Assembly: GCA_947476065.1 (NCBI GenBank)
Contig: CANJPG010000007.1
Location: 1 to 64,000 of the forward strand
Source: Fidelibacterota bacterium
Lineage (GTDB): Bacteria; Pseudomonadota; Alphaproteobacteria; Rhodospirillales; Rhodospirillaceae
DNA: 64,000 nucleotides
Direction of reading: 5' to 3'
The notes under the pieces were generated by a model. That model did no database searches. It had not been told where the DNA came from and saw only the letters and a program-made list of their open reading frames with translations. Of this stretch, positions 8,211-59,156 are shown piece after piece. Made by a program: the position numbers and the translations under genes. How positions within the stretch are numbered: the stretch's first letter is position 1; every line of letters starts with the position of its first letter.

Positions 8211-10169
8211 CTACTCCGCAGCGGCGCCGTCCGCACGGGTGCGCGTGACGCCCGCGGCCTGAGGCACCGGCAGGCCCATCATCTCCAGCACTTCCTTGTT
8301 GTACTGGCCGGGGTTCTGCGGCGCGGCAGGCATCAGCTTCACGATGCCTTCCACGGGCTTGTAGGGGCCCTTGTACTTGTACTGCAGGCGGCCGTGGTTG
8401 CTCTTGGGCGAGAACTTGGCTTCCAGCGTCGTGATCTTGTCCTTGTCCGGATAGAGGACGGCGGCCGTGGCGCCGTATCCGCCAGACTGACCGGCATTGC
8501 GCGAGGCGTACCAAACAGCGCCCTGGGCCGTGATGGTCAGACGCGCCAAGTCGGTGCGCACGGTCACCGGATAGTTGGTGAACTTTTCGGTCTTCGGGTC
8601 GAATTTGACGACGTAATTGTCGGTGGAGAGCCAGACGTTGTCTTCGTCATCGGGATCGCTGTCGTAAGGATTGGCATAGGGAATGGTGAGTTTGTATTCC
8701 TTCACCTCACCGGTGGACGGCGTCAGCTTGAACAACCCCGCGCTGTTGTAGCCATAGCTGCCCCACGTCGCCTGCCAAATGTTGTTCTGAGAGTCGGCAC
8801 CCGGGCGGCGCATGTTGGTCGGCGCCTGGGCCGTCAGACGATAGTGGCGGAACTTGTTGATTTTGGGATCAAAGCTGGTGACGCCGCTGTTGTGGTAGTC
8901 GCCGAACCAGATGACGTCGTTGTGGTCGATGGTCACGCCGTATGGGCGGCTGCGATAGACCGGCACATCCCACCAGGTGACCTTATCGGTCTTGCGGTCC
9001 CACTTCGCGAACCCGCCGCTTCCCAGCTGTGTGCCCCACTGGTCGCCATTGGAATCGAAGATCGACGTGGAAATGCCGATGTTCCGGCCCTTGGGGCCAA
9101 CGTCGAGTTTATATTCGTCGACCTTGCCCGTTTTTGGATCGAAATGCTTCCAGCCGCCGTACCAGACGGTGCCGTCGCCGTCAGCGGTGATGGACTCACT
9201 GCCGCCGACGCCTTTGAATTCTTCCCACACACCCGTGGTCGGGTTGATGTGATAGATCGCGCCGCGCGAGCCGCGGTCGGCGGTGAACACCGTGCCATCG
9301 CCGGCGAAGGTGATGGTGTGCGTCGCGCGCTTGGGCATGTCTTCGGTGTTGAGCTTGCGGTACTCGATGTACTGCGCCTTGGCCAGCGCGGCGGTGTCGA
9401 GCGGCGCATCGGTTTCCTGCTGGACAGCGCGCGGCACGGCATCGGGGCCGAAGTTCTTGGCCAGATAGTCGATCAGCACTTCGCGCTCTTTCGGCGGCAG
9501 CAGGTCGGCGTCGAAGTTCGGCGCCTTGCCGGGGGTGTTGAAGCCAGCACCCTTGTGCATGCGGTCGACGGTGATGGCCCAGCCGTCCTTATCCTTCAGC
9601 GTACGGCCGGTGGCGTAGGTGCGGTCGTAGTTGTAGGAGAACAGATGCGGAGTGTGACAGCCCATGCAAATGCGCTCGAGGTTGTCGCGGCCCTGCCCGT
9701 GCGGGAACACGTCGTCGTACTTGGAGACGACGGCGACCGCCGCCGGTTCAGCGTCTTCGCGGTCGGTCCAGCCGTCATAGGGCATGCCGCCGAAGTAGGT
9801 CGGCTTAATGGTGGTGTCCTTGATCGCAACGTCGGCCTTGGCCTGCTTGCCGGTAGCGACATCGACCTGCACGGTGACGGGCGGCAGCGTGTAGTTCATC
9901 TGGCCGGCGGTCCCGCGCACGGTGACTTCGTAGTGGCCGGGGAACATGTTGGTGGCGCGGTACTGACCGTCAACCACGAACACCATGTAGCCGACGCTCT
10001 TTTCTTTGTTCCAGGCATAGACGCTGAGCTGGCCAACGGGCTTGGGCACCGTGACTTTACCGGCGAGACCGCCGAGCCCCGGCAGGTCGGCGGCCTGGGC
10101 TGCGAAGCCGAAGCCACACAGTCCGACGACAATCGCGGCGCTGCTGAGAAGATGTTTGGTGGTGCTCAT
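8211..10169 (-). CDS. Vgb-like beta-propeller protein with haem c motif (copy 1)
   Basis: The start is the ATG at 10169, preceded by GGAGAG and opening a signal peptide that ends in AAQAAD; the longer frame has no site. The 652-residue protein has a carboxypeptidase-regulatory-like segment (residues 35-120, including QYRATNMFPGHYEV), a c-type haem motif CMGCH (Cys168, Cys171, His172), then a C-terminal seven-bladed-type propeller with repeated DG.VW and FDP.T units typical of the streptogramin lyase (Vgb) family. With a haem motif and a signal peptide this is more likely a periplasmic redox or binding protein than an antibiotic lyase. It is paralogous to the genes at 60968 and 63657 but lacks their C-terminal CKDC motif. 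Confidence 0.88.
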   Translation of the reverse strand: MSTTKHLLSSAAIVVGLCGFGFAAQAADLPGLGGLAGKVTVPKPVGQLSVYAWNKEKSVGYMVFVVDGQYRATNMFPGHYEVTVRGTAGQMNYTLPPVTVQVDVATGKQAKADVAIKDTTIKPTYFGGMPYDGWTDREDAEPAAVAVVSKYDDVFPHGQGRDNLERICMGCHTPHLFSYNYDRTYATGRTLKDKDGWAITVDRMHKGAGFNTPGKAPNFDADLLPPKEREVLIDYLAKNFGPDAVPRAVQQETDAPLDTAALAKAQYIEYRKLNTEDMPKRATHTITFAGDGTVFTADRGSRGAIYHINPTTGVWEEFKGVGGSESITADGDGTVWYGGWKHFDPKTGKVDEYKLDVGPKGRNIGISTSIFDSNGDQWGTQLGSGGFAKWDRKTDKVTWWDVPVYRSRPYGVTIDHNDVIWFGDYHNSGVTSFDPKINKFRHYRLTAQAPTNMRRPGADSQNNIWQATWGSYGYNSAGLFKLTPSTGEVKEYKLTIPYANPYDSDPDDEDNVWLSTDNYVVKFDPKTEKFTNYPVTVRTDLARLTITAQGAVWYASRNAGQSGGYGATAAVLYPDKDKITTLEAKFSPKSNHGRLQYKYKGPYKPVEGIVKLMPAAPQNPGQYNKEVLEMMGLPVPQAAGVTRTRADGAAAE

Positions 10170-10338
10170 GACGGCTCTCCATCCCTGGATCGGCCGCGCG
10201 GGGTGCGCGCCCGATGTTGTTGCAGTTGTTATCGTATTTTGACTGAATTCCGATCCCTTGCGTGAAGTGTGCAACGCAGGAGGCGACCTCACTATTTGTT
10301 TTTGTAGCCTTTAGTATGTGTTTTATGCATGTAACGAA

Positions 10339-11613
10339 TTAATACGGGAAAGCCGGGCGCCAGGAGACCGCCACGTCTACCGCCGAACGCACATTGGCGA
10401 TGTTGGTGATCTTCCCGCTCGGGTCGGTTTTGTAATAGCTGTAGATGTATTCGCCCTTCATATCGCCGGGCGCATGATCGAGGCCGTAGAAGAAGAGTCC
10501 CTGCCCGCGATAAGCCCATTGGCGGCTGCCGTCTGGCGCTTTGACCACGGTCCAATAGCCCGAGCCCTGAGCGTCATCGGGGGCTTTAAAGGGATGCCAG
10601 ACCTTCAGGCAGGCGTCATCACAATCGACCACCGGAACAGGCCGCGACGGCCCGCGCCCGCGGGCACCGCGGTTCTGCGCGTACAACGTCATGCCGACAT
10701 CGTCGGTGAAGATGGTGCCAAAACCGGGAGCTACGCCGATCTTGATGCCGGCAGGAGTGAAGTAAGAGGCCAGCAGCACCGGCGCCCAACGCGGATCGGC
10801 GCCTATGCCCTCGGCGTCGCCCGGCGCCAGATCGGCGGTGGAGGTGTAAAGGGCGCGCCCCTTGTAAGCCCACTGCCGCGCGCTATCGGCCCGGTGCAGG
10901 ATGGTGAAATCTCCGACCGGACTGGCGAGCGCCGGCGCCTCGACCGGTTTCCAGCTAACCTTGCAGCCAGCGCCGATACACGACTGACCGTCCTTCAGCA
11001 CGTCGCCGTTGAAGGCATAGAGCGTAAAGCCGTCTGCATCCACCAGCCCCTGGCCGGTGGCATTGGCGATTTCATGGACCGCAAAACCGTCGGGGATTTT
11101 CATCCCGGCGGCGGGTTCAAACAGGGCCACGCACCAGGGCGCCGGAAAGGCCACCGGCGCGCTACCAGGCAAGCGATCAGGCACGGAGCAACGCGCGTAG
11201 GCCGTGCTCTCTTTTTCCTCTTTGGCGAGGTAGAGCGGGCTGCCCTTGAAAGCCAGCTGCCAGACCCCAGGCGCACGTTCAAAGGTCGACCACGTTCCTA
11301 TGTTTTTCAAAGGCTTGGAAGACGTTGCTGGTGTATAGCTTTCAAGACATTCGGCAGCGCACGCCGATGTCCCGGCGGCGGTGTCCTTCTCATATATGTA
11401 GAGCAAGCGACCCGCTTCATTGGTGTAGGCCAAGGGGCCGGGAATGTTATTGCCGGCGGCGTTGCGGGTCCCGCGCGTCAGCTTGATACCTACGCCGGGC
11501 GGGGTCGCTAGGACGGGGCCGCTGGCGGCGGCGGTCTTGGTGGCTTCCATGGTCTGGCAGCCCGCCAAGAGCAGGACCGCGGCAGCCAGAATGGTTGCGT
11601 TGCGCCGGTACAT
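10339..11613 (-). CDS. Lipoprotein with PF03640-type secreted repeats
   Basis: The 424-residue product begins with a lipoprotein signal (LLLAGC, Cys18). Three to four repeats of about 100 residues follow, each with a GR.LY.YE or GFTLYAF strand, paired cysteines (for example SACAAEC), a tryptophan-rich turn and a closing QWAY.G..LY stretch. This is the pattern of the secreted-repeat family PF03640 (COG4315), whose function is unknown. The ATG lies 9 bp after the DUF1552 stop, with an AAGG site between, so it is the last gene of the second module. The position after DUF1552 is kept in all three modules of the window. Confidence 0.85.
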   Translation of the reverse strand: MYRRNATILAAAVLLLAGCQTMEATKTAAASGPVLATPPGVGIKLTRGTRNAAGNNIPGPLAYTNEAGRLLYIYEKDTAAGTSACAAECLESYTPATSSKPLKNIGTWSTFERAPGVWQLAFKGSPLYLAKEEKESTAYARCSVPDRLPGSAPVAFPAPWCVALFEPAAGMKIPDGFAVHEIANATGQGLVDADGFTLYAFNGDVLKDGQSCIGAGCKVSWKPVEAPALASPVGDFTILHRADSARQWAYKGRALYTSTADLAPGDAEGIGADPRWAPVLLASYFTPAGIKIGVAPGFGTIFTDDVGMTLYAQNRGARGRGPSRPVPVVDCDDACLKVWHPFKAPDDAQGSGYWTVVKAPDGSRQWAYRGQGLFFYGLDHAPGDMKGEYIYSYYKTDPSGKITNIANVRSAVDVAVSWRPAFPY

Positions 11614-11622
11614 TGCGGCGCC

Positions 11623-12981
11623 TTAGGCCAGGATTTCGGTGAAAGCGCGGGCGGTCTTGTTGGACTCTGTGCCCCACTCGGCCAGCGGAATCCCCATGGC
11701 CTGCTGGATGGTCAGTCCGACGCGGCTGACGGTCTCGCCGGGTGCCGACAGGTGATAGCCCGTCTTGACCCGCCCGCCTGCCCCGCCGGCGGTCAGCATC
11801 GGCATGTTGGCGACAGTGTGGTTCTTGGCATAGCTGACGTCGGTCATGGCCAGGATCAGCGAGCGGTCGAGCAAGGTCCCTGCCCCTTCCTGGATGCCGG
11901 CCAGGGCTTTGACCATGGTGGCGAAGCCCAGCATGCTTTGTTGATTGAACCAGTAGACATCGGTCTGGAAGCCGATGGCCGGATCGCTGGGCTCCTCGTG
12001 GGTGCGCTGATGGTGGCCTTCGGACACGCCGGGACGGCGCAGCATCGACAGCGACTGGGAGAACACCACGTTGAAGACATTGGTCTGGCCGCAGGCCAGG
12101 GCGTGAGCAAGCAACTGGCCGAACAGCTGCTGCAGCCGGTGCGTCGTGGCAATCTCCACATCGCGGCCGACCTCTTCCGGCTGGCGCGGAGTCTCGCAGG
12201 CTTCCATGGGCTCGGGCTTTTCCAGCTCCAATTCGAGTTTCTGCTCAAGCTGGCGGAGCGAGGTGAAATAGTCTTCGGCCCGGGCGCGGTCGGTGGCCCC
12301 CAGCTGCTTCATCAGCGCCACGCGCTGCTCAGCAACGGCGGAGAGAGCGCTGCGGCGCACGATGGTGCGGGCATCGGGCTTGAAGTCGGCGGCGTTGGGG
12401 TCGATGAACTCCGGCCCGAACAGGCGTGTATAGAGTTCCAGCGGCGAGACCTCGGAGACGTTGGTGGCATTGCCACCGCGGCTCGAATAGGTGTCGCGGG
12501 CTTTCTGGGTGCAGGTGACCTCGATGGAGCGGAAGCGCGTGCGCAGGCCAATCTGGTCGGCGACAACGGAATCCAAGGTCGCCTGGTCGCCGCCCATGAT
12601 GCCGAGGCCGCTGCCGGTGAACGGCGCAGTGCCGGTGGTGATGGCGGCCACGCCGGTCAAATGCGTGATGTTCGGGCGGCCGTCGAGGTGGACGTTCATG
12701 CCGCTGTAGACGTTGAGCTTGTCTTTATAGGCCGCGAGCGGTTCCAAGAGCGGCGGGATGGCGTAACCCTTGCCGACGGTCTTGGGCTCCCAATGGCCGG
12801 GTGTCAGGCCGCAACCCCAGAACCAAGTGCCGAAACATGGGCTGGGCGCTTTGCCGGTTGCGGCGAGCGCTTCGCCGTTGCCGTCGAAGAAGCAATCCAG
12901 CAGCGGCAAGCCGATGGAGAGCGCCGTGCCAGCCATGGTGCCGCGCAGGAAGTTGCGGCGATTAGCCAGGGTGAGTTTCAT
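11623..12981 (-). CDS. Tat-exported DUF1552 protein (module 2)
   Basis: This 452-residue protein begins with a Tat signal (RRNFLRGTMAG, then GTALSIGLPLLDC). The rest matches the DUF1552 family (PF07586): an FGTWFWGCGLTPGHW-type opening, a central DRARAEDYFTSLRQLE helix and a C-terminal block with TDVSYAKNHT and GGRVKTGYH. The family is found next to DUF1592 proteins in many bacteria; its biochemical role is unknown. The ATG overlaps the stop of the DUF1592 gene by four bases (ATGA) and has a strong AAGGAGG site, which indicates coupled translation. It is a paralogue of the proteins at 17553 and 55337. Confidence 0.9.
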   Translation of the reverse strand: MKLTLANRRNFLRGTMAGTALSIGLPLLDCFFDGNGEALAATGKAPSPCFGTWFWGCGLTPGHWEPKTVGKGYAIPPLLEPLAAYKDKLNVYSGMNVHLDGRPNITHLTGVAAITTGTAPFTGSGLGIMGGDQATLDSVVADQIGLRTRFRSIEVTCTQKARDTYSSRGGNATNVSEVSPLELYTRLFGPEFIDPNAADFKPDARTIVRRSALSAVAEQRVALMKQLGATDRARAEDYFTSLRQLEQKLELELEKPEPMEACETPRQPEEVGRDVEIATTHRLQQLFGQLLAHALACGQTNVFNVVFSQSLSMLRRPGVSEGHHQRTHEEPSDPAIGFQTDVYWFNQQSMLGFATMVKALAGIQEGAGTLLDRSLILAMTDVSYAKNHTVANMPMLTAGGAGGRVKTGYHLSAPGETVSRVGLTIQQAMGIPLAEWGTESNKTARAFTEILA

Positions 12982-14702
12982 TGTTGAGCCTCCTTACCAA
13001 AACCAGCCGGAAGCGCGGCGGTAGAGCGATCTAAAAGCTTGGGCGGCGTCGGCACCCGGTACAAGGCATCGCTGAGGGCAATGTGGCGCATGAGCTGAGT
13101 AAATTTGTAGCCGTCCTTGGCGAAGGCGGCCTTCAGCTCATCAACGGCGGGGCCTTCGCTTTTCAGCAGCGGACGGCCGGTGCCGTAGGTGTACAGGCGG
13201 TTGACGACGCAGGTCGGGATATTGGGATTGTCGTGCAGGATGCGCGCGAGCTCGGCAGCATTGGTGAATTTGACGCCGTCGAAGGTGCCGGACGGATCAA
13301 TGGCTTCGCCGTTTTCCGCGCCGCGGAATTCGCCGGCGGAGTCAAAATTCTCGAGAGCCAGGCCCAGCGGATCGGTGATCTTGTGGCAGCCCGCGCACAT
13401 CGGTTCGTTGGCGTGCGCCCCCAGGCGCTTCCGCGCGGTCTTGAAGATTGGATTGCTGGTGTCCTGGACGACCTTGAAGTCCACGTCACCCGGCGGATTG
13501 GGCACTTTCTGGCAAAGTAGAATTTCCCGCAGCGCCTTGCCGCGCACCGTCGGCGAGCTGCGCCCGGGGTGCGAATGCAGGGCAAGGAAGCTAGCCTGCG
13601 ACAGGATGCCGACACGCGGGCTATCGGCGGGGAACTCGTAGGGCTGCCAGGCGTCGTCGGTGGTGTTGGGTGTGACGCGCGGCAGCGGCACGCGGTAGAT
13701 GCTGGCCAGGGTGGTGGTCAGGAAGGTTTTGCGAGTCGTGAACAGATCGCGGTAGTCGCCGCCGTTGGAGACGAGAAGGTCAACGATGGTGCGCAGGGTC
13801 TGCTCTTCGCTCTGGCGCGATACCTTGCCCGAGAACTTGGGATAAATGGCGCGGTCCTTGGCCAGCGAGTCAAAGTCCGAGAAACCCAGCATGTCGGTGA
13901 AGAAGGCGCGCACACCGGCTTCGAGACGCGGCGAAGCCAGCAGCCGGTCTACCTGTTTGGCCATGCCTTTTTGCGTCTCGAGCTCGCCCTTCTCAGCCGC
14001 ACGCAGCAGTTCGTCGTCCGGCGCCGTGTTCCACAGGAAGAAGCTGATCCGCGAAGCCTTGGCATAGTCGGTCATGTGGTAGACGCCGGGATGGGCCGCA
14101 TCGGGTACGGCGATCTCCTGGCGGAACAGAAACGGCATCGACACCATCATGGTCGATAGGCTGGTCGACAAGCCGGCGTAGAAATCCTTCAGCGCCGTGG
14201 CCGATTCATTAGCCACTCCGACCCAGCTGCGGGTCTCGTCGGCGGTCAACGGGCGGCGATACAACAAGCGCCCGGCCCGGGTCAGGAAGGCGGTGGCGCA
14301 GGATTCGTCGGCGGCTTTGGCATTGCCGGGCTTGCAGGGGATCAGCGTATCGCGGCGCTCAGGGCTGACGACCTGGTCGGCGACAACACGGGCCATGCCC
14401 TCGTATTGCTCAATGGCCGTCGGGGTTGCACTCACGACGCCGGTACCGAGGGCCAGCAGGCCATTGTAGCGCTGGTCAGGTTCGAACCTGCCGCCTAGGG
14501 TGATGGTCTTGCCGAAAACGTCGGTGACGATCTGACGGTATTGCTCGGGCGTCAGGCGACGCATCACCAGTTCGCCGTCGGTGTTCGGCGCATCTAGGCT
14601 GGCGACCGCCCATGCCGCGCCCGCCGTCGCCGCCAGCAGCGCCGCCGCCGAGGTCAAAAGCTTTGCGTGCCGGAAGAACTGGCCGATCATCATTGGGACC
14701 AT
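12978..14702 (-). CDS. DUF1587/1592/1588/1585 haem-motif protein (module 2)
   Basis: The 574-residue exported protein carries the usual domain order of this family: DUF1587 near residues 45-60 (RRLTPEQYRQIVTDVFG), DUF1595/1592 in the middle (RPLTADETRSW, MPFLFRQE), DUF1588 with the haem c motif CAGCH near residue 435 followed by DPLGLALENFD, and a C-terminal DUF1585. The single CxxCH predicts one covalent haem. Unlike its two paralogues it has an ordinary signal peptide (ending near AGAAWA) rather than a lipobox. It is translationally coupled to DUF1552. The start could also be one of the ATGs at 14693 or 14690. Confidence 0.9.
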   Translation of the reverse strand: MVPMMIGQFFRHAKLLTSAAALLAATAGAAWAVASLDAPNTDGELVMRRLTPEQYRQIVTDVFGKTITLGGRFEPDQRYNGLLALGTGVVSATPTAIEQYEGMARVVADQVVSPERRDTLIPCKPGNAKAADESCATAFLTRAGRLLYRRPLTADETRSWVGVANESATALKDFYAGLSTSLSTMMVSMPFLFRQEIAVPDAAHPGVYHMTDYAKASRISFFLWNTAPDDELLRAAEKGELETQKGMAKQVDRLLASPRLEAGVRAFFTDMLGFSDFDSLAKDRAIYPKFSGKVSRQSEEQTLRTIVDLLVSNGGDYRDLFTTRKTFLTTTLASIYRVPLPRVTPNTTDDAWQPYEFPADSPRVGILSQASFLALHSHPGRSSPTVRGKALREILLCQKVPNPPGDVDFKVVQDTSNPIFKTARKRLGAHANEPMCAGCHKITDPLGLALENFDSAGEFRGAENGEAIDPSGTFDGVKFTNAAELARILHDNPNIPTCVVNRLYTYGTGRPLLKSEGPAVDELKAAFAKDGYKFTQLMRHIALSDALYRVPTPPKLLDRSTAALPAGFGKEAQQ

Positions 14703-14709
14703 AACTCTC

Positions 14710-15858
14710 TTATTTTTGTGCGCTTGACGTCGACGCTGGGGCCGAAGCCGTGTTCACGTTGCGCGGCGCGGTGAAGGCCGGCAGCAACTCCATGCGGTAG
14801 GTCGCCGAGATGCCGCGGTTCTCGCCCGTGCGCGGATCGGGATCAAAGTCGGACAGCTTGCGCAGCGCGTAGTACATGCCCGGCAGATCAGTGCCGTAGC
14901 TGATCTCGGTGCCCGAAGCCAAGGTGGCGAACTGGGCATAAACCTGAATCCACGGCTGATAGCCGCCGATGTAGCCGGTCAGGGAACGGTCCGAGTTGAA
15001 GGTCATGCGTAATTGAGTCTGATCCATCTTGAAGTCGGCGACGACATTGACGTCTTGTGTCATCTGGAAATGGAAGGGCGACGCCACGCGCAGCACGCCG
15101 CCGGTAATGTTGCCGTGGGCTTCGCTGTGGGCATGGGCATCGGGATCGATGCGGAAGGTGACGTCGGGCATAACCTCGCCGTTGGCGTCCCGCTGCACTG
15201 GCTCGAGCGCCCGGTCGAAGGTGATGGCGACGTCGCCGTCCTTGCTGAGGTCGTCGCCGGTGATCGTCATGAGCCAGGCCGGCACTGTGTCGCGGTTCAG
15301 ATCCCATTCGTTAGAGGGATAGCCCGGTCTGTCCGGCAGCTTGGCATGGAACTGCACGCTGCAGCCCATCACGCGGCGCACTTGGTTATCGATGCCGGTT
15401 TCGCCGGTTTCGGGGTCGACCGAAGACTCAAGCGACTTGGCCGGCTTTCCGTCGAGGTTAAAGCCGTTGGCGAACTTGCCCATGGCCAGTTTGATCTTGG
15501 GATCGGGCACGGAATAGGGATGGGAATAGACGTCGACTTCCTTGCCGTCGATGCGGCCGCGGTAGGTGCCGATCTCGCGGGCCTGGCGGCCGCGGGCGTC
15601 GGTGCCGCCGTCGTCAGGAATCCCGTCGAGGACTTTTTCAATATCGGAGCCGGAATATCCGAGATCATTCAGGATGCGTACATAAAGCGGACGCTGCGCG
15701 AGGTTGAGGCCCGTGGGACAGTCGTCGTCCTGGCGATAGGTGGCGACGTGAAACCAGTTCACCACATAACTGCGGCTTTCGGCGTGCGCCACCTGCGGTA
15801 CGATGAAGGCGCCCGATGTCAGAAGCAGCGATGCGAGAAGTGTGTGACGTGATTTCAT
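14710..15858 (-). CDS. Family X exported protein, unknown function (module 2)
   Basis: The 382-residue protein starts at the ATG at 15858 with a signal peptide (ending QVAHA); the longer frame is a shadow of the upstream gene. I recognise no known domain. It is clearly paralogous to the proteins at 20681 and 58029. They share an N-terminal CP.G.N motif, a FNLDG or MNLDG segment, a GIDN..RRV.GC or GIDN.LYRV.GC motif with an invariant cysteine, a stretch of acidic residues before a beta strand, an IGGY or IAGY segment, and a C-terminal ALRKL-type helix. It is the first gene of its module, just upstream of DUF1592. The family appears to be a constant partner of DUF1592/DUF1552. Confidence 0.8.
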   Translation of the reverse strand: MKSRHTLLASLLLTSGAFIVPQVAHAESRSYVVNWFHVATYRQDDDCPTGLNLAQRPLYVRILNDLGYSGSDIEKVLDGIPDDGGTDARGRQAREIGTYRGRIDGKEVDVYSHPYSVPDPKIKLAMGKFANGFNLDGKPAKSLESSVDPETGETGIDNQVRRVMGCSVQFHAKLPDRPGYPSNEWDLNRDTVPAWLMTITGDDLSKDGDVAITFDRALEPVQRDANGEVMPDVTFRIDPDAHAHSEAHGNITGGVLRVASPFHFQMTQDVNVVADFKMDQTQLRMTFNSDRSLTGYIGGYQPWIQVYAQFATLASGTEISYGTDLPGMYYALRKLSDFDPDPRTGENRGISATYRMELLPAFTAPRNVNTASAPASTSSAQK

Positions 15859-15875
15859 CGCTGACTGCCCTTTAT

Positions 15876-16331
15876 TTACTTTGCGGCAGACTGCGTGCCG
15901 CTTGGTCCGACTGTGACGGCCGTCCATATTTCCAAGACGTTGTGGCCTTTGGCATCGCCTGGCGCCTGGTCCTTGGCGTAGGTGTAAAGCGGCCGGCCTT
16001 TGTAGGCCCACTGCCGCTTGCCGTCGTCGCGGGTAAAAATCGTCCAATCGCCCATCGGCTTGGCGTCCGCCGCCGCTACAAACGGCGGCCAGTTGAATGC
16101 ACAGTCGCCGTTGCAGGCCGACTTGCCGAACTCGACGTCGCTCGCCAGCACATACAGCGTATGGCCGTTGGCATCGGTCAGCACGGTTGCCTCGGTCATC
16201 GTGCTTGGCAGTACGGCGTTCGCCGCAAGTTTTGCGCTTTTGGTTCCGACGCCGGCCGGCACGTCAGCGGCAAAAGCCGCGAACGGCGCAAGCAAGGCGG
16301 CAACAGTCAGTAGACGAGCAAGTTTACGCAT
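15876..16331 (-). CDS. Single-unit PF03640-type secreted-repeat protein
   Basis: This 151-residue protein has a signal peptide ending in AAFAAD and one complete repeat unit: TDANGHTLYVL, a SACNGDC cysteine pair with NWPPF, then ADAKPMGDWTIF and KRQWAYKGRPLYTY. It is the minimal form of the family and shows the unit that is repeated in its neighbours. The ATG at 16331 shares its A with the stop of the upstream repeat gene, so translation is probably coupled; an overlapping GTG at 16334 is the alternative. The function is unknown, with periplasmic location expected. Confidence 0.85.
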   Translation of the reverse strand: MRKLARLLTVAALLAPFAAFAADVPAGVGTKSAKLAANAVLPSTMTEATVLTDANGHTLYVLASDVEFGKSACNGDCAFNWPPFVAAADAKPMGDWTIFTRDDGKRQWAYKGRPLYTYAKDQAPGDAKGHNVLEIWTAVTVGPSGTQSAAK

Positions 16332-17533
16332 CACGATCCGCCGGTCCCCTGCATAGCGCCGCCCATCCGCATCAGCGGAAAGAACACGCGGTAATTTTTG
16401 GTGCCGGTGATCTCGCCGGCACGCGCATCTTTTTTGTAGGTGAACAGCGGCAGCCCCTTATAGGCCCACTGTTTCTGCCCATGGATGTTCGTGATCAGCG
16501 TCCAATCACCGACCGGTTTGGCATCGGCCTTGGCGATCACGGGCACGTAGAAATCGAGGCAATACTGGTTGCAGCCGCGTTCGGAGGCACCGCCAGACGG
16601 CCGGTTCACATTCTGCTCGGCGTCGAACTGATAGAGGGTGCGCCGCTCGGGATCAGCAACAACTTCGCCGCCGTCGGTTGAGGCAAAGGTCACCCAATTC
16701 GGCCACGCCGGCGGCGCTTCGAGAAGGGCCACACTGACCTCGCCGCGGGCAACCGCCAAGCCATCGCCTTCGACGTCGGCGGGCTTGCTGTCACCGGAAT
16801 AGGTGTAAAGCGGCTTGCCTTTGTAAACCCACTGGCGAGTCTTATCGTCGCGCAGAGCAATCGACCAGTCAGGCGCCGTGGATACCGTCATCCACGACGC
16901 TTCCAGCGGGTGCCAATTGACCAGGCACTCGCGTCCGCAGTTGGACTTTATCTCGCCCATCGCCATCGCCGGCATCGCGGCGGCATTGCTGGCGACACGC
17001 ACCGTGCTGCCGACAACCTTGTCGCTGCTCAAGGTATAAAGCGACATACCGTCGAAGTCGGTGAGAATATGGCCGTGGGCGGTCTGCATCACTTTGGCAT
17101 CGGCGGGCGTGGGGATCGCCTCGGCAGCCACATGCCAGAGGTCATTTTCCGGACGCTCGCCGAACTGAGAGCCGGCAAAAGCGTCGCGGACAAAACGGTA
17201 GAGCGGCTTATCCCTGTAGGCCCACTGAAAACCTTCATCGGCGCGTTTGATGACGGTCCACTCACCCATGGGCTTTGCGTCAGCAGGCGCCATGAGCGGC
17301 GGCCACTTCTCGGCGCAGGCTTTGAAGCAGCTGCTGACCCCGGGCGTGACGTCGCGGTCGAAGGTGTAAAGCGTCATGCCCTTCAGATCGGTCAGGATCC
17401 AGCGCGCCGGCGTGGCGTGCAGCTTGACCTCGGCTGGCGCCGCGGGTGTCGGCGGTGCGGCCAAGGCAGCACCCGAGACCAACAGAGCAATCGCGGTCAG
17501 AGTTTGAAGTGTGTGTCCCATCTTTCCGGCCAT
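16331..17533 (-). CDS. Multi-repeat PF03640-type secreted protein (module 1)
   Basis: The 400-residue protein has a signal peptide (ending SGAALAAP) and three PF03640-type units. Each unit has a LYTFDRD or LYQFDAE strand, a paired-cysteine loop (SSCFKAC, SNCGREC, RGCNQYC), an ADAKP.G.WT.I turn and a QWAYR..PLY end. The paired cysteines suggest disulfides or metal binding in the periplasm. The gene follows DUF1552 as in the other modules and overlaps the next repeat gene. An internal ATG at 17521 is an alternative start. Confidence 0.85.
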   Translation of the reverse strand: MAGKMGHTLQTLTAIALLVSGAALAAPPTPAAPAEVKLHATPARWILTDLKGMTLYTFDRDVTPGVSSCFKACAEKWPPLMAPADAKPMGEWTVIKRADEGFQWAYRDKPLYRFVRDAFAGSQFGERPENDLWHVAAEAIPTPADAKVMQTAHGHILTDFDGMSLYTLSSDKVVGSTVRVASNAAAMPAMAMGEIKSNCGRECLVNWHPLEASWMTVSTAPDWSIALRDDKTRQWVYKGKPLYTYSGDSKPADVEGDGLAVARGEVSVALLEAPPAWPNWVTFASTDGGEVVADPERRTLYQFDAEQNVNRPSGGASERGCNQYCLDFYVPVIAKADAKPVGDWTLITNIHGQKQWAYKGLPLFTYKKDARAGEITGTKNYRVFFPLMRMGGAMQGTGGS

Positions 17534-17552
17534 GGCGCGTTTACCAATCCTA

Positions 17553-18932
17553 TTAGGTCATGATCTCAGTAATCGGCTTCGACGTTTCAAGGGATTTTGT
17601 GCCCCAACGGTCGACCGGCAAGCCCATGACGCGCATGGCGGTGAAGCCGACGCGGGTGCACGGATCGCCATTGCCGACGACGTGATAGCCGGTCTTGATG
17701 CGTCCGCCGGCTTTGCCAAACGTGAACATCGGCAGATTGTTGACGCCGTGATAGCGGGCATAGCTGCTTTCGCTGTTGGCGAAGACTAGGCAGTTGTCGA
17801 GCAGCGTGCCGTCGCCTTCCTTGAACTTGGTGAAGGCCTCGAGGAAGGCCGCGGCGCCAAGCATGTTCTGGCAATTGAACCAGAAGGCCATGGGCTGATA
17901 CCCCAACTTGGGATCGGTTTCTTCTTCGTGGGTCAGGGTGTGGTGGTTGTTGGCATCCCCCTTGCGACGCAGGCCTGAGAAAGCGTCGCTGTAGACGACG
18001 TTGAACATGTTGGTCTGGTTGCAGGCCAGCGCCATGGTCAGAATTTGCATCATGACCTTGTGGCTTTCGGCGACGGCCTCGACCTGGGCAAAGCTCTGGC
18101 CGGCCAATTCGTCGTTGCTGCCGGCGATGCCGTCGAAGGTCATCGGTACGCAGGCCTGATTTGGGGCTGGCTTCTGCAGCTGCAGATCCAGCTGACCTTC
18201 GAGCTGGCGGATCGAGGTGAAGTATTCGTCCAGACGCTGTTTATCGGCGGCGCCGACGACGCCCTGGAAGCGCTTACTCTCGTCCAGCACGGCCGACAGC
18301 ACGCTCTTGCGCACCATCAGGGCGGGATCCGGCTTGAAGTCGGCTTTGTTGGGATCGACGAAATCCGGTCCAAAAATGCGGCTGTAGAACGACAAGGGCG
18401 CTGCTTCCGCCGTGGCGCGGGCGTAGGTGCTGCGCGCCGAATAGGTGATGCGCGGGTTGCCCATGCTGTTGATATCGAGCACGCGGAAACGTGTGCCGCT
18501 TCCCTTGGCATCGGCGATCAGAACGTCGAGCGTCGGCGCGGGAACTTCGCCCGTATTAGCCGGCGCGGTGCCTGTGCGCGAGGCCACCCAGCCTGAGTGA
18601 TGGACGTAGTTGGATTTGCCGTCGAGCGGCGTATTGAATCCGCCGAAATAATTGATGTGGCTTTCGTAAGCCTGCAGCGGCGCGCATTCTTCGAGGAATT
18701 TGATTCCCTTGCCCGTGGCGGCTTTGGCGGCGACGTCGTGGCCGGGGGTATGACCGCAGCCCCAGTACCAGGTGCCGAAGCGCACCGGGATGGGCGCGCC
18801 TGAGGCCTGGGCCGTGCCATTCGCGTTTAGGAAGCAATCAAGGAACGGCAGGCCGACGCTGACGGCTGCGCCGCCCAGCATGCCGCGCAACACATCGCGG
18901 CGGGGCGCGGGGCGCTTCAACAAGATGCTCAT
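17553..18932 (-). CDS. Tat-exported DUF1552 protein (module 1)
   Basis: The protein has 459 residues and a Tat signal (PRRDVLRGMLGG followed by AAVSVGLPFLDC). It shares the DUF1552 blocks with its paralogues: FGTWYWGCGHTPGHD, KQRLDEYFTSIRQLEGQ and a C-terminal GGRIKTGYHVVG. AAGGA before the ATG at 18932 supports the start. It lies 24 bp downstream of its DUF1592 partner. Paired DUF1592/DUF1552 proteins are thought to act together outside the cytoplasm, but no reaction is known for the family. Confidence 0.9.
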   Translation of the reverse strand: MSILLKRPAPRRDVLRGMLGGAAVSVGLPFLDCFLNANGTAQASGAPIPVRFGTWYWGCGHTPGHDVAAKAATGKGIKFLEECAPLQAYESHINYFGGFNTPLDGKSNYVHHSGWVASRTGTAPANTGEVPAPTLDVLIADAKGSGTRFRVLDINSMGNPRITYSARSTYARATAEAAPLSFYSRIFGPDFVDPNKADFKPDPALMVRKSVLSAVLDESKRFQGVVGAADKQRLDEYFTSIRQLEGQLDLQLQKPAPNQACVPMTFDGIAGSNDELAGQSFAQVEAVAESHKVMMQILTMALACNQTNMFNVVYSDAFSGLRRKGDANNHHTLTHEEETDPKLGYQPMAFWFNCQNMLGAAAFLEAFTKFKEGDGTLLDNCLVFANSESSYARYHGVNNLPMFTFGKAGGRIKTGYHVVGNGDPCTRVGFTAMRVMGLPVDRWGTKSLETSKPITEIMT

Positions 18933-18956
18933 GATCTATTCCTTCGCAAAAACCAA

Positions 18957-20654
18957 CTATTGGACGTTCTGTGTGACCTGCTGCTCGGCAGGCGGGACGG
19001 CGTAGAAAGCTTTATCGTTGGCAATATCACGCAGCAGCGCCGTCAGGCGGTAGCCGCTGGCGGCGAAGCGTTCGCCCAGCGTGGTCAGCCACGCCTTCTC
19101 GTCCTTGGTCTGGGGGCGGCCCAAAGCGTAGGACGACAGGCGGTTAACCACGCAGCCGGTGATGGCATTGTTGTTGTGCAGGGCGAGCGCCAAACCGGGC
19201 GCGTCTTTGTATTCAATGCCGTCCAATTTCCCACTGGTGTCGAGCGGCGTGCCGTTCTCGGAGGTGCGGTACTGGCCGGCGCCATCGAAGTTCTCGAGCG
19301 CGAGGCCAATGGGATCGACCAATTTATGACAGCCGGAGCATGACGGGCTGGTGCTGTGGGCTTCCAGACGCTGACGGGCGGTTTTGAACTCGCTGTGTTC
19401 GGCGTTGAACTGGGCGAAGTTCACATTGGCCGGCGGATCGGGCACACGTTGGCACAGCAGCAGTTCACGGATGGCCTTGCCGCGGATCGTCGGCGAGCTG
19501 CGGCCGGCATGGGAATGCAAGGCGGTGAAGGCAAAGGTCGACTGGATGCCGGTGTAGGGGCTGTTTTCCGGATAGGTGTACTCGCCCCAGGCGCCGGGCT
19601 TGGGCGCCGCGACGCGGTAAATGCGGGCCAGGGAGTCGCTGATGTAGGTTTTGCGCATGGTGAACAGATCGCGGTAATCGCCGTCGGCGACCACCAGTTG
19701 CTCGACGATCATGCGCAGCAGCTGCTCCTTGGCATCGAGGGAGACGGCCGCGTTATAGACCGGGAACAGCACCGAATCTTTTTCCAGCGTGTCAAATTTA
19801 TCAAAGCCCAGCATGTCGGTGAAGAAGGCGCGCACGCCGCCTTCCAGCTGGCGCGAGGCGATCATGCGGTCGACCTGCTTGGCCAGCCCCTTCTCGCTGT
19901 GCAGCGCGCCGGTAGCAGCGGCCGTAAGCAGCTCGTCGTCGGGCGCTGTGTTCCACAGCAAGAAACTCAAACGGCTGGCTTTGCTGTAGGCGGTCAGTCG
20001 CTTTTGACCTTGTACGGCCGGATCCGGCTCCACCGCTTCGTTGATGAAGAGGAAAGCCGGGGTCATCAAAAGGCTCGAGAGTCCGGATTCGACGCCGGCA
20101 TAGAAATCACCCGCGGCGGCGGTGCCGGCCGCCGCGATATCCATGCGGGTTTTCAATTCTTCGTCGGTCAGCGGACGGCGGAACAGGAAACGCCCGGCTT
20201 GGCTGAAGAAGCGCTGCGCACAGGCTTCATCGAAGGCCTTGGGCGATGCCGGCACGCAGGGCATGGTGAGCGCGCGGTTTTTCGGATCGACCACCTGGGC
20301 GGCGACGGCGCGGGCGGCGATTTCGAATTGCTCGAAGCCCGCCGGGCTCATGTTCACTTTAGCAGCGCCGACGGCGAACAGGCCGTTGATGCGCACCAGC
20401 TGGTCGAACTTGCCGACGATCTTGACGCGCGGGCCGAAGACGTTGGAGATGATGCTTTGGTACTGCTCGCTGGTCAGGCGGCGCATGGCGACAACGTCGC
20501 TCTCAACGGGCGCGGCATAGGCGACAAGGGTCGCGCTGGAGGACGAGGCGACCTTCGCGGGCTTGGCCGGGTTCTGCTCGCTGCAGCCGGCAAGCACCAT
20601 CACAGCAGCAAGGCCCACCATTCCCATCCGGCCTTTGAGCGATGATTTCAGCAT
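18957..20654 (-). CDS. DUF1587/1592/1588/1585 haem-motif lipoprotein (module 1)
   Basis: The 565-residue protein has a lipoprotein signal (VLAGC, Cys23), so it should be membrane-anchored. Domain landmarks are RRLTSEQYQSIISNVFG (DUF1587), RPLTDEELKTR and TPAFLF (DUF1595/1592), CSGCHKLVDPIG with the haem c motif near residue 438 (DUF1588), and VVNRLSSYALGRP (DUF1585). AAGGG before the ATG fixes the start. Gene order X, DUF1592, DUF1552, repeat protein is the same as in module 2, which points to a tandem duplication of the whole unit. Confidence 0.9.
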   Translation of the reverse strand: MLKSSLKGRMGMVGLAAVMVLAGCSEQNPAKPAKVASSSSATLVAYAAPVESDVVAMRRLTSEQYQSIISNVFGPRVKIVGKFDQLVRINGLFAVGAAKVNMSPAGFEQFEIAARAVAAQVVDPKNRALTMPCVPASPKAFDEACAQRFFSQAGRFLFRRPLTDEELKTRMDIAAAGTAAAGDFYAGVESGLSSLLMTPAFLFINEAVEPDPAVQGQKRLTAYSKASRLSFLLWNTAPDDELLTAAATGALHSEKGLAKQVDRMIASRQLEGGVRAFFTDMLGFDKFDTLEKDSVLFPVYNAAVSLDAKEQLLRMIVEQLVVADGDYRDLFTMRKTYISDSLARIYRVAAPKPGAWGEYTYPENSPYTGIQSTFAFTALHSHAGRSSPTIRGKAIRELLLCQRVPDPPANVNFAQFNAEHSEFKTARQRLEAHSTSPSCSGCHKLVDPIGLALENFDGAGQYRTSENGTPLDTSGKLDGIEYKDAPGLALALHNNNAITGCVVNRLSSYALGRPQTKDEKAWLTTLGERFAASGYRLTALLRDIANDKAFYAVPPAEQQVTQNVQ

Positions 20655-20680
20655 GATCTAGCCCTTCTCTTCTTCGCTTG

Positions 20681-21850
20681 TTACTGCGCTTGCGCGATCT
20701 TGTTCGGCTTGTCGCCGCCGTCGCGATGCTTGATGAAGCCGGCAACGGTCTTGATCTTGAAGGCCGAGGAGATCGACGTGCATTCGCCGGTTTTCGGATC
20801 CTTGTGGCCGTCGGCCAGCTTTTGGATCGCGGCGTAGATGCCGGGACACGTGTAAAGTCCCGTGGGCTGCCAGCCCTGCTCGCCGATGTATTCCCAGAGC
20901 TGCTGCGTGCTGTAGTAGCCGCCGATGACTCCGTCGGCCGCCGATCCGTCGGCGTTGATCTTCAGCTCGATCTGCGTGTCCATCAGCTGCATCGTCTGGA
21001 AGGATTGATTGGCGTAGAACGGCAACTTCACATCGCCTGGAACTGTCGTCTTCAGCACACCGTCGACGATCTTGCCCTTGATGCTGTCGCCATAACGGGG
21101 TTTCTCGCCGTCGTAGTCGATGCGATAGGTCGAATAGGGCAAGGGGCTCGCGCTGGCGCCGAAGGTAAACGTATCAACCGAGCGATAGAAACTAATGGTG
21201 ACATCGTCGTCGTTGCGCGCGTCATCAACGCCGCTGACTTCGATAAGGATCATGCCCAGGCCATTCGTCTGGCGGTGGCCGTTGGCCGCCGTCTCGATGT
21301 GGCCGATGCTGCGCCAGCCGTAGACGCAACCCAACACCCGATAGAGCTGGTTGTCGATTGCGGGCGTGCCGTCGACGCCGGTGAATTTTTCATGCTTGCA
21401 GCTTTTCGGCGTGTCCTTGCCGTCGTCGGTGCCGTCGAGCTTCATACCGTAGGCGAGCTTGCCGCGGACGGTGTAGAGCGGCGGATCTTTCACGGCCGTC
21501 GGGACCTGGCAAATGTCTTCCCCGTTGGGGCCGCGGTGATTGGCGATGTGCTGGCGGGCGATCTGAGTCATGTCGCCGTTATTGGTCAGGCGGCCGCGCT
21601 CTTCCTTGGACAGGCCGCGCCACCAGAATTCGTCGTTGGTGGCGTTGATGCCTTGGGGGCATTCATCCATGAAGCGGGATTCGTACATGGCGGTGTTGAA
21701 GGTCGTCACCGCAAAACCCAGGGTCTTGGATGTGGGGTCTCCGGCCTTCGCCGGCGTGAGTGCGGCCAGCACCGCGACAAGGCCCGCACCTGCCGCCGCG
21801 CGCAGCGACGGGCGGAAAATCGACGACGGGATCGGAGACAGAGACACCAT
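20681..21850 (-). CDS. Family X exported protein, unknown function (module 1)
   Basis: This 389-residue protein has an N-terminal hydrophobic signal (LRAAAGAGLVAVLAALTPAKA). It contains the family X landmarks: DECPQGIN, GMKLDGTDDG, AIDNQLYRVLGC, RNDDDVTISFYR, DGVIGGYY and a C-terminal AAIQKLADGHKDPKTGEC. It lacks any haem motif. AAGGGA before the ATG at 21850 supports the start. As the first gene of a long minus-strand run (21850 down to 10339), its promoter region probably controls both modules; that region holds a perfect 17-bp dyad at 22021. Confidence 0.82.
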   Translation of the reverse strand: MVSLSPIPSSIFRPSLRAAAGAGLVAVLAALTPAKAGDPTSKTLGFAVTTFNTAMYESRFMDECPQGINATNDEFWWRGLSKEERGRLTNNGDMTQIARQHIANHRGPNGEDICQVPTAVKDPPLYTVRGKLAYGMKLDGTDDGKDTPKSCKHEKFTGVDGTPAIDNQLYRVLGCVYGWRSIGHIETAANGHRQTNGLGMILIEVSGVDDARNDDDVTISFYRSVDTFTFGASASPLPYSTYRIDYDGEKPRYGDSIKGKIVDGVLKTTVPGDVKLPFYANQSFQTMQLMDTQIELKINADGSAADGVIGGYYSTQQLWEYIGEQGWQPTGLYTCPGIYAAIQKLADGHKDPKTGECTSISSAFKIKTVAGFIKHRDGGDKPNKIAQAQ

Positions 21851-58028: not shown

Positions 58029-59156
58029 ATGACCATGAAAAAACTCCTGCTGGCGGCCGCTGCATCACTCGCGCTCGGAACAGGCGCCGCCTTCGCCGCC
58101 GACTTCACACCTCCAGGCGGCACCATCGCCTATTTGGTCACCGACTTCTTCTGGACTACCTACGAGAGCCCCGACGGCAAAGAAGAATGCCCGCAGGGCT
58201 TCAACCCCTGGGGCCCGCGCGAGCAATTCAAGGCGCTGTTCCCCGACGACGGCACCAAGCGCACAGAGCTGGAAACCCACCTCGCCCGCGAGATCGCCGG
58301 CTGGTTTCCCGACACCAAACCCGACACCTTCCCGTTCTATGAAGTCGCCGGCACAAAGTCCTACGGCATGAATCTGGACGGCAAGATCGGCCCCAACGAC
58401 TTCACCAGCCCCGACGGCGAAAAGGGCATCGACAACGAGCTCTATCGCGTCATCGGCTGCGTCTTGAATCTGCGTCCGCCGGAAGGCCCCACCGCCTACT
58501 TTGCCAACCGCGCGGTGATGGAAGAGCGCTGGAACCGCGTGATGTTCGAGCTGACCAAGGTCGACAGCTTGACCAACGACGACGACATCGACGTCACCAT
58601 CTACCGCGGCCGCGATCACATCCTGATGGACAACACCGGCAATAATTTTGTACCCGGCGGCTCGCAGCGCCTGGACACCAAGTGGGGCAAGAAGTTCACC
58701 CAGCACATGCACGGCCGCATCATCAACGGAACGCTGATCACTGATCCGATTGCCAAGGCCGTCATCCCCTGGTCGTCGTTTACGCTGCCGACGGTGCAGA
58801 AGTTCAAGGACATGCGCCTGAAGCTGAAACTCGATCCGCAGCGCGCAACGGGCCTGATTGCAGGATATGTGGATGTCGAGAACTGGTACATGCAGACGGT
58901 GAAGTCGGAATCGACCCATCACCAGAGCTACGGCCAGTCGTCGCCGCCCTCGATTTACAAAGTGCTGCGCCGCCGTGCGGATGCGTACCCCGACGAGAAC
59001 GGCGTCAACACGGCGATCTCGGCTGCCCTCGAGACCAAGATGGTGCAGGTCTACATCATCCATGAGCCGGGCGGCCCGGTTGCGGCGTTGTCCGCGCCGA
59101 TGAAGCACGCCGCGGTGACGGACGAAGCCCCAATCACCATCGCCGACGCCAAATAA
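58029..59156 (+). CDS. Family X exported protein, unknown function (module 3)
   Basis: The 375-residue protein has a signal peptide (ending GAAFAAD) and the family X landmarks EECPQGFNPWG, GMNLDGKIG, GIDNELYRVIGC, NDDDIDVTIYRG, GLIAGYVDVE and YKVLRRRADAYPDENG. Either ATG (58029 or 58035) can be the start; AAGGG suits the second better. It is five bases after the repeat gene, so it is co-transcribed. Compared with its paralogues only short blocks are kept, so the family evolves fast apart from the GIDN..RV.GC core. Confidence 0.8.
   Translation: MTMKKLLLAAAASLALGTGAAFAADFTPPGGTIAYLVTDFFWTTYESPDGKEECPQGFNPWGPREQFKALFPDDGTKRTELETHLAREIAGWFPDTKPDTFPFYEVAGTKSYGMNLDGKIGPNDFTSPDGEKGIDNELYRVIGCVLNLRPPEGPTAYFANRAVMEERWNRVMFELTKVDSLTNDDDIDVTIYRGRDHILMDNTGNNFVPGGSQRLDTKWGKKFTQHMHGRIINGTLITDPIAKAVIPWSSFTLPTVQKFKDMRLKLKLDPQRATGLIAGYVDVENWYMQTVKSESTHHQSYGQSSPPSIYKVLRRRADAYPDENGVNTAISAALETKMVQVYIIHEPGGPVAALSAPMKHAAVTDEAPITIADAK

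Follow-up and report, generated by a model that had tools for sequence, protein, structure and literature searches.

Four-gene modules encoding DUF1592-type haem proteins, DUF1552 proteins, family X and PF03640 repeat proteins: many diverged copies in an alphaproteobacterial genome and a possible exported redox role

We analysed a stretch of DNA of 64 kb, hereafter the window, in which two blocks of genes in the order X, DUF1592, DUF1552 and PF03640 lie adjacent on the minus strand (module 1, 21850–15876; module 2, 15858–10339; Table 1). Analysis of open reading frames and Pfam matches recovered all eight genes listed in the first-pass annotation, in the order and families given there, and the close coupling noted for them was confirmed: the gaps between successive genes measure 26, 24 and 19 bp (module 1) or 7, −4 and 9 bp (module 2). 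An additional gene for a small PF03640 protein stops 17 bp before X2 and overlaps module 1 by 4 bp; since it bridges the two modules in this way, the nine genes may form one transcription unit. A third module, overlooked in that annotation, was detected on the plus strand (53598–59156) in the order DUF1592, DUF1552, PF03640 and X. The products also show N-termini that resemble the Sec, lipoprotein or Tat signals assigned to them, when judged by eye and with simple patterns rather than with a signal predictor.

Table 1. Genes of the three modules and neighbouring features in the window
Feature	Position	Strand	Remarks
X1, family X, 389 aa, module 1	20681..21850	−	Sec-like signal
DUF1592-type, 565 aa, module 1	18957..20654	−	PSD3-PSD5-PSD4-PSCyt3-PSD2; lipobox LAGC; CSGCH at 19326–19340
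DUF1552 (PF07586), 459 aa, module 1	17553..18932	−	RR motif, Tat-type signal
R1, PF03640 repeat protein, 400 aa, module 1	16331..17533	−	5 repeat matches
Small PF03640 protein, 152 aa	15876..16334	−	2 repeat matches; overlap is with R1
X2, family X, 382 aa, module 2	14710..15858	−	AlphaFold model, mean pLDDT 90
DUF1592-type, 574 aa, module 2	12978..14702	−	One CxxCH: CAGCH at 13383–13397
DUF1552, 452 aa, module 2	11623..12981	−	Alkaline-phosphatase-superfamily fold predicted
R2, PF03640 repeat protein, 424 aa, module 2	10339..11613	−	Lipobox LAGC; 5 repeat matches
DUF1592-type, 580 aa, module 3	53598..55340	+	Lipobox; CAGCH at 54927–54941
DUF1552, module 3	55337..56674	+	ATG overlaps 3′ end of preceding gene by 4 bp
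PF03640 repeat protein, module 3	56689..58023	+	
X3, module 3	58029..59156	+	Last in order
TonB-dependent receptor	24977..27367	−	3.1 kb upstream of module 1
Two alpha/beta hydrolases	25083–23932, 23941–22910		After TonB receptor
CHRD-domain gene	22340–22855	+	Between module 1 and hydrolases
Possible accessory, CMGCH haem motif	8211..10169	−	Weak, below-cut-off matches to Vgb/SGL-type propellers

The 3.26-Mb genome carries 17 DUF1552 genes, 15 full DUF1592 genes (PSD4) and approximately 20 X genes. X and DUF1552 each occurred in 25 of the 61 related genomes, and these were the same ones for both; copies per genome among relatives ranged from 3 to 29, and the copy numbers of the two families were correlated across the 25 genomes with both (rho 0.87), with at most 32 X candidates scored per genome and the absences and copy numbers of X less certain. 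All four genes were found in 59 of 78 loci, nearly always in the order X–DUF1592–DUF1552–PF03640 and tightly spaced. These loci were retrieved by X similarity (best 80 of 140 confirmed matches), X thus being present by construction, and they come from a limited number of MAGs, with related MAGs pooled; the G675 and G748 loci are not independent of this set. The exact order was observed in 63 of 114 same-strand runs in the loci examined, a frequency above chance, many of the others being broken at contig ends. Among gene pairs −700 to 500 bp apart, taken as longest open reading frames, gaps of 60 bp or less separated X from DUF1592 in 77/78 cases, DUF1592 from DUF1552 in 78/79 and DUF1552 from PF03640 in 72/79.

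The constant partnership of the four families claimed in the first-pass annotation is supported by these loci, but partly refuted by the neighbourhood criterion proposed there. In a phylum sample, X was detected in 2 of 8 DUF1552-positive genomes (4–5 candidates scored per genome, so that absences are less certain), and all five inspected other-class loci without X also lacked PF03640. The DUF1552 match of genome G437 was weak. The other-class pairs L116–L120 share the DUF1592–DUF1552 adjacency and retain H324 and H328 in DUF1552, whereas their DUF1592 proteins are 1590–2369 aa long in four of the five cases (853 aa in L116), with neither X nor PF03640 in the surrounding sequence that was read. 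Domain scans of four of them (all but L119) gave CBM26, GSDH (PQQ-dehydrogenase-type) and cytochrome c in L117, PKD and a cellulose-binding-protein domain in L120, Ig-like domains in L118 and none in L116; convincing GSDH/cytochrome fusions were absent from three of the four. X–PF03640 pairs without DUF1592 and DUF1552 exist, as do DUF1592–DUF1552 pairs without X and PF03640, and the four families are therefore not obligatory for one another. We regard DUF1592–DUF1552 as the wider core, and X with PF03640 as a second, separable pair.

The four families diverged together, with Mantel r of 0.78–0.89 across 14 of the 17 modules and 0.50–0.72 once the divergent clade was removed. This set represents 14 of 17 DUF1552 loci, those dropped being C91 (DUF1592 not found) and C123 and C135 (contig ends), while C119 was retained despite its truncated X. 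The four genes form a cassette inherited as a unit. Mean identities among modules were 0.51 for DUF1592, 0.48 for DUF1552, 0.33 for X and 0.35 for PF03640, and on these sequence comparisons X and PF03640 are best read as the variable parts of the module. Modules 1 and 2 had been interpreted as a tandem duplication. Their identities (X 0.26, DUF1592 0.48, DUF1552 0.45, PF03640 0.30) fall short of the average over all module pairs, and the resemblance between them is no greater than that of any two modules in the genome; a recent tandem duplicate was rejected on this ground, and in a quick tree the two modules also fell on different sides of a starred split. What is seen is an adjacency of old modules. 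An ancient tandem origin is possible, because the AU test did not reject modules 1 and 2 as sisters (p 0.42).

The DUF1592-type proteins of modules 1, 2 and 3 show the domain order PF07626, PF07637, PF07631, PF07627 and PF07624, the PF07626 match of module 3 being below the cut-off (20.4 bits against 23). The single CxxCH motif reported for those of modules 1 and 2 was confirmed, and exactly one was present in each of 79/79 complete DUF1592 proteins. No PDB sequence relatives of the DUF1592 profile were found. In G135, one of two outlier genomes, a cytochrome c′ gene directly follows DUF1552, about where PF03640 would sit, and in G579, the other, a plastocyanin/azurin-type (cupredoxin) gene between DUF1552 and X takes about the same place. 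CxxCH motifs occurred in 9 of 119 neighbours near modules against 1 of 166 far from them, with 1-kb and 3-kb limits picked after viewing the loci. Together with the haem motif itself and the L117 fusion, these neighbours provide several lines of evidence for the redox role suggested earlier, although the DUF1592 haem may instead have a structural or sensing role.

PF07586 was matched above the cut-off by 17/17 DUF1552 copies of the genome and by 65/65 aligned sequences. A Tat-type RR motif was present in every complete DUF1552, and no PDB sequence relatives were found. The AlphaFold model (pLDDT 88.8) gave 12 Foldseek hits at E≤0.001 (sulfatases, E 9e-6) and aligned with PafA/ENPP at Z 16.9 over 275 residues (rmsd 4.0); the fold is predicted to be that of the alkaline phosphatase superfamily. 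The usual nucleophile and first Asp of these enzymes have apparently been lost: an invariant H107 (65/65) appears to occupy the nucleophile position, the first strand is not followed by a conserved Asp, and HxxxH replaces DxxxH, the usual pattern in the superfamily, as mapped by sequence order and secondary structure rather than by coordinate superposition. The HxxxH residues H324 and H328 of the HXXSHH motif were conserved in all 65 sequences and in all 7 further rows; position 327 was Thr in 59 sequences and Ser in 6, and the final His of HxxSHH was E (64) or D (1) here and H in 1/7 further rows. Position 381 was D (57) or E (8) and was followed by His382 in 31/65, in part resembling the SDHG motif, a pattern of the superfamily, while H410 was mostly conserved and lost in 4/7 further rows. 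Comparison of DUF1552 with DUF1501 and phosphodiesterases by hhalign gave only two matches, one within the signal peptide and one of 16 columns, with 4 of 24 phosphodiesterase loci usable.

For X, only weak, scattered Pfam hits were obtained, none above the cut-off (X1, X2; 80 members), and neither an NCBIfam match (X1, X2) nor a PDB sequence relative was found. RuvA_C (best E 0.0019; 3/80 members) was dismissed as weak, as was DUF6603 (E 0.0045; 1/80 members, below cut-off). The predicted structure of X2 is a beta-barrel; its best structural match has Z 7.1 and spans 101 of the 382 residues, and there was no Foldseek hit at E≤0.001. Foldseek and VIA-align pointed to a designed barrel, avidins, TbpB/LbpB/NHBA barrels and phenolic acid decarboxylases; as scattered small-barrel matches (Z≤7.1), these were read as a common arrangement, and X is modelled as a beta-barrel without a clear relative. 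The PF03640 proteins of modules 1, 2 and 3 showed repeated matches above the cut-off, and their PDB search returned a single hit of no significance (E 0.2).

TonB receptors occur upstream of the modules more often than expected. A codirectional receptor was present within a 5-kb window, set after viewing the loci, in 6 of 14 testable modules of the genome (expected 2.2% each) and absent from it in 8; C123, C135 and C119 were left out, C79 and C59 were retained despite short upstream sequence, and a truncated receptor upstream of C91 was not counted. Across loci, at least 27 of 98 contained a receptor and 71 showed none, the profile missing some. ECF sigma factors and FecR occur at some loci, and hydrolases are encoded close to modules 1 and 3. 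The annotated recurrent neighbours are TonB receptors, ECF sigma factors, FecR, propellers and a metallo-beta-lactamase-type protein, most neighbour clusters being unannotated. Known TonB-receptor uptake loci with ECF sigma/FecR combine a receptor, regulators and exported proteins in many paralogous loci; the modules may share this overall makeup, with haem and alkaline-phosphatase-fold proteins in place of the usual partners.

We found the four-gene cassette described nowhere in the open-licence literature searched, most subscription papers and preprints lying outside the search, and the literature found gave no reaction for the DUF1592/DUF1552 pair. In freshwater Verrucomicrobia, PSCyt3 genes usually adjoin a family of unknown genes, with large numbers in some MAGs, according to the available part of PMC5615132. 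The domain families of these ‘planctomycete-specific’ PSCyt3/PSD cytochromes are common to both, but the DUF1592 proteins here are short, at about 560 aa, and gave no match to a carbohydrate-binding domain, and they belong to a cassette with X and PF03640, neither mentioned in that part of PMC5615132. Cbp2D of Cellvibrio, described in the accessible text of PMC8981238, has c-type cytochrome domains and an annotated DUF1587, and passes electrons to LPMOs through its CjX183 domain. The resemblance lies in a DUF1587 domain within a secreted haem protein, linked in Cbp2D to the oxidative breakdown of polymers. Since no PDB sequence resembled the DUF1592 profile, that profile did not pick up the solved X183 domain.

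Our preferred, still tentative, reading is that the modules are exported redox units in TonB-linked handling of outside substances, with approximately 17 versions for different substances. The DUF1592 cytochrome would pass electrons to or from DUF1552, a putative metalloprotein loaded before Tat export, in which a remodelled histidine-rich site (H107, H324, H328, H388, mostly H410, and D/E381) would replace ordinary ester hydrolysis. The PF03640 protein, or the cytochrome c′ or cupredoxin about in its place, could act as electron relay or in substrate binding; the X barrel, the most variable member, might confer specificity, and the TonB receptor might import the product or sense the substrate. 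A bolder version, which we consider unlikely, holds that DUF1552 is an alkaline-phosphatase scaffold turned into a histidine-liganded, cytochrome-served redox metalloenzyme, in an alphaproteobacterial lineage (probably known in part from lakes and bogs) whose genomes each carry ~3–29 oxidative uptake loci working in parallel and often linked to TonB, X and PF03640 setting specificity. If true, these loci would do for dissolved organic matter, by redox chemistry, what polysaccharide utilization loci do for polysaccharides. If the redox reading is correct, these bacteria have a large, hitherto unrecognized oxidative entry to external organic matter, and redox chemistry has taken over a hydrolase fold. 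In this lineage the four-gene unit is compact, has a single haem and is present in many diverged copies. X–PF03640 alone, DUF1592–DUF1552 alone, and cytochrome c′ or cupredoxin near DUF1552 without PF03640 are natural experiments that make the question testable.

Unlikely, though with a real chance of being right, is hydrolytic uptake, in which DUF1552 is a hydrolase of the superfamily acting on a sulfate, phosphate or other ester and feeding the TonB receptor, with a secondary haem protein. The sulfatase and PafA/ENPP matches, the D/E381–His382 pair and the nearby hydrolases agree with it, but the His apparently at the nucleophile place and the lack of a conserved Asp after the first strand do not, and the universal haem motif, cytochrome c′ and cupredoxin are left unexplained. 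Improbable too is mere co-regulation of four exported proteins acting separately in one pathway: the separated pairs and the varying position of X, both XABR and ABRX orders being found (A, DUF1592; B, DUF1552; R, PF03640), would suit it, against which stand the tight spacing and the co-divergence across families. We give rather little weight to an envelope or extracellular-polymer assembly machine outside catabolism, comparable with the DUF1501/DUF1800 genes found in operons with bacterial chitin synthases (PMC5122149, available part). There, too, an uncharacterized exported protein (DUF1501, with a Tat motif) is paired with a second uncharacterized one in conserved operons, but the families differ and hhalign gives no DUF1552–DUF1501 link. 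X and PF03640 are, by signals and prediction, secreted beta-rich or repeat proteins, and a TPR protein (5722–7671) that matches glycosyltransferase-9 over a short stretch recurs in three loci; the annotated neighbours listed above, however, are of another kind (most clusters being unannotated), and 3 to 29 copies per genome fit substrate diversity better. Selfish amplification of a mobile cassette without function for the cell would account for the high copy number but is hardly credible, given deeply diverged copies, no internal stop in any of the 17 DUF1552 genes, near counterparts of several copies in other MAGs and no mobile-element gene among the annotated recurrent neighbours (most clusters unannotated).

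One further haem-motif gene adjoins module 2, the possible accessory of Table 1; its open reading frame extends to 10292, 47 bp from R2, with the likely ATG at 10169.

In the window, two adjacent blocks read in the order X (family X), A (DUF1592-type protein), B (DUF1552) and R (PF03640 repeat protein), and consecutive genes were spaced by -4 to 26 bp (see table). The first-pass annotation had described these blocks as a tandem duplication of a four-gene secreted module; both blocks were recovered, but a third module had been overlooked. Downstream of R2, the product of the haem-motif gene gave only weak propeller matches, below the cut-off.

Features of the window and of two outlier genomes
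Feature	Position	Strand	Length	Remarks
Module 1	21850-15876	minus
X1		minus	389 aa	module 1; first gene going from 21850 to 10339
A, DUF1592-type		minus	565 aa	module 1
B, DUF1552		minus	459 aa	module 1
R, PF03640 repeat protein		minus	400 aa	module 1
Small PF03640 protein		minus	152 aa	between R of module 1 and X2
Module 2	15858-10339	minus
X2	ATG 15858	minus	382 aa	module 2
A, DUF1592-type		minus	574 aa	module 2
B, DUF1552		minus	452 aa	module 2
R2, PF03640	ends 10339	minus	424 aa	module 2
Haem-motif protein	ORF 8211-10292			probable start 10169; 47 bp after R2
TPR protein	5722-7671			short glycosyltransferase-9 match; its cluster recurs in 3 loci
Catabolic cluster	31942-43288	mostly minus
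Module 3	53598-59156	plus		order A-B-R-X
Creatininase-family gene	59184-60095			after module 3 (X last)
Second haem-motif protein	60968-62917	opposite to module 3		weak Vgb-type match
Genes for cytochrome c' and a cupredoxin close to DUF1552	L115:7296-7868 and L180:10933-11367			two outlier genomes

The genome carrying the window (3.26 Mb, 158 contigs, 99.8% complete) contained 17 DUF1552 genes, 15 full PSD4 matches plus one fragment, and 81 PF03640 repeat matches. X was matched 20 times by single-sequence search, including one weak match and one truncated at a contig end, and 22 times by profile; modules 1 and 2 therefore belong, as two members, to a genome-wide set. Five DUF1501 matches were also present, and on one contig (C91) X and DUF1552 occurred without a recognised DUF1592, with an alcohol-dehydrogenase-type gene in between. 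Across 19 genomes of the genus, this one included, DUF1552 copies ranged from 3 to 29. X and DUF1552 occurred in the identical 25 of 61 related genomes, and their copy numbers were correlated over the 25 genomes holding both (Spearman 0.87).

An X-based scan (best 80 of 140 confirmed X matches; X is there by construction) yielded 78 loci in MAGs labelled Rhodospirillaceae, Rhodospirillales, Alphaproteobacteria and other names, whose stated sources include Lake Erken, Baikal and bogs. All four families were detected in 59 of the 78 loci, the remainder holding X alone (7), X and R (6), X and A (4), X, B and R (1) or no recognised X (1). When our own loci and the window were added, 63 of 114 same-strand runs were exactly X-A-B-R and three were A-B-R-X, many runs being broken by contig ends. 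Among pairs lying -700 to 500 bp apart (longest ORF), gaps of 60 bp or less were found for X-A (77/78), A-B (78/79) and B-R (72/79). Paralogous modules co-diverged (14 of 17 modules; Mantel r between 0.78 and 0.89, with p 0.0001 in every case), values that are partly high because of a deep split between module groups; within the larger group of 10 modules, r was 0.50 to 0.72 (p 0.0001 to 0.003). Mean identity was 0.51 for A and 0.48 for B, the conserved members, and 0.33 for X and 0.35 for R, the variable ones. The four genes almost certainly constitute a cassette as one unit, and its products are very probably exported; the chances that the four proteins form a physical complex are about even.

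A recent duplication of modules 1 and 2 was considered and rejected. The two modules are adjacent, and the AU test did not reject their sister relation (p 0.42), but their likeness was below the average of module pairs, and in a quick tree built jointly from A and B, module 1 clustered with module 3, C33b and C32 (modules of the same genome) and two MAG rows (99*), with module 2 placed apart. Modules 1 and 2 are therefore old neighbours; of the proposed tandem duplication, adjacency and a possible sisterhood survive. In the same tree several own modules had close counterparts in other MAGs (e.g. C61, 81% identity), as expected if every module has its own task.

Scoring 4-5 candidates per genome, we detected X in 2 of 398 genomes of an even phylum sample (our own and G135) and in 6 of 385 of a class sample; DUF1552 was found in 8 of the 398. 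The supposed constancy of the X and R partners held in all six class-sample loci read, from G542, G675 and G748 (the latter two also belonging to the scanned MAGs), each being X-A-B-R, but failed in five inspected X-less DUF1552 loci of other classes (L116-L120), where A adjoined B and R was missing as well. Conversely, X-R pairs without A-B in the stretches examined occurred at L036, L037, L056, L059 and L078. The cassette is therefore composed of two separable pairs, united in this lineage. Among the four DUF1592 proteins subjected to a domain scan, that of L117 was fused to CBM26, a glucose/sorbosone dehydrogenase (GSDH) domain and cytochrome c, that of L118 to Ig-like domains (with GSDH and cytochrome matches below the cut-off), and that of L120 to PKD and a cellulose-binding-protein C-terminal domain; that of L116 showed none of these fusions. 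Under our proposal, A-B would be the reaction core and X-R the variable part. The X-A-B-R cassette was not found described in the open-licence literature, most subscription papers and preprints lying outside the search scope.

Exactly one CxxCH motif was present in each of 79 complete DUF1592 proteins. The two outlier genomes, G135 and G579, are nearly complete, and scoring their candidates gave a single X match in each. In both, a small electron carrier stood at about the usual place of R, which was missing from the inspected stretches: in G135, X-A-B was directly followed by a gene for cytochrome c' (PF01322, E 1.8e-24) and then by genes for a glyoxalase-like protein and a TonB receptor, and in G579, A-B was separated from X by an ORF of 205 aa and, after it, a gene for a plastocyanin/azurin-family protein (PF00127, E 2.8e-17). 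Co-directional neighbours contained CxxCH in 9 of 119 cases within 1 kb of modules versus 1 of 166 at more than 3 kb (p 0.002 by Fisher's test, with limits picked after the loci were seen). Several of these fell into a single cluster, represented at 7 loci, of large haem-motif proteins whose N-terminus is carboxypeptidase-regulatory-like; the protein following R2 belongs to another cluster of similar size. Taken together, the haem probably serves electron transfer. PMC8981238 reports that a cytochrome domain of Cbp2D, a protein also annotated with DUF1587, donates electrons to LPMOs, and PMC5615132 describes freshwater Verrucomicrobia with many PSCyt genes, mostly adjoining unknown genes, whose functions it gives as unknown.

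The genome contained 29 Plug matches, and a co-directional one lay within 5 kb upstream of 6 of 14 testable modules (expected 2.2% per module, p 3e-7). By profile search, at least 27 of 98 loci had a TonB receptor; ECF sigma and FecR genes were neighbours of some of them. Module 1 lies 3.1 kb downstream of a receptor that is followed by two alpha/beta hydrolases, and a tannase/feruloyl-esterase-family gene precedes module 3. We tentatively associate the modules with TonB-linked oxidative substrate use: they may be exported four-part redox units linked to TonB uptake, every version suited to another substance.

The X2 model (mean pLDDT 90, pTM 0.86) showed, by secondary structure and structural matches, a barrel from strands of both ends with a helical insertion; Foldseek gave no match at E ≤0.001, and the best VIA-align Z was 7.1 over 101 residues. 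C47 and C166 were conserved in 80/80 X sequences. The module 2 DUF1552 model (mean pLDDT 88.8) matched sulfatases in Foldseek (best E 9e-6) and PafA (5tj3) in VIA-align (Z 16.9, rmsd 4.0, 275 aligned). H107, H324, H328 and H388 were present in 65/65 sequences and H410 in 64/65; position 381 was D in 57 and E in 8, and position 382 was H in 31. Among seven additional rows, namely G135, G020 and five distant ones, H324 and H328 were kept in 7/7, H107 and H388 in 6/7 and H410 in 3/7. H107 lies just ahead of helix 109-116 and ten residues before G117; by sequence order it presumably occupies the expected place of the nucleophile of the alkaline phosphatase superfamily. From sequence and model, we infer, as the least secure step, that the metal site may have changed and the hydrolytic nucleophile been lost; a histidine-rich redox metal in DUF1552 is conceivable but rather doubtful.

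The catabolic cluster of the window encodes a PEP-mutase/isocitrate-lyase-like enzyme, both the small and the large aconitase-type subunit, an FAD-binding protein, isochorismatase, HMG-lyase-like and CoA-transferase III proteins and a second aconitase, a set that looks similar to part of a nicotinate/dimethylmalate-type route. Within the Tat-type signal region of DUF1552 (11623-12981 numbering), C30 was kept in 54 of 65 sequences, in an LLDC context unlike a normal lipobox.
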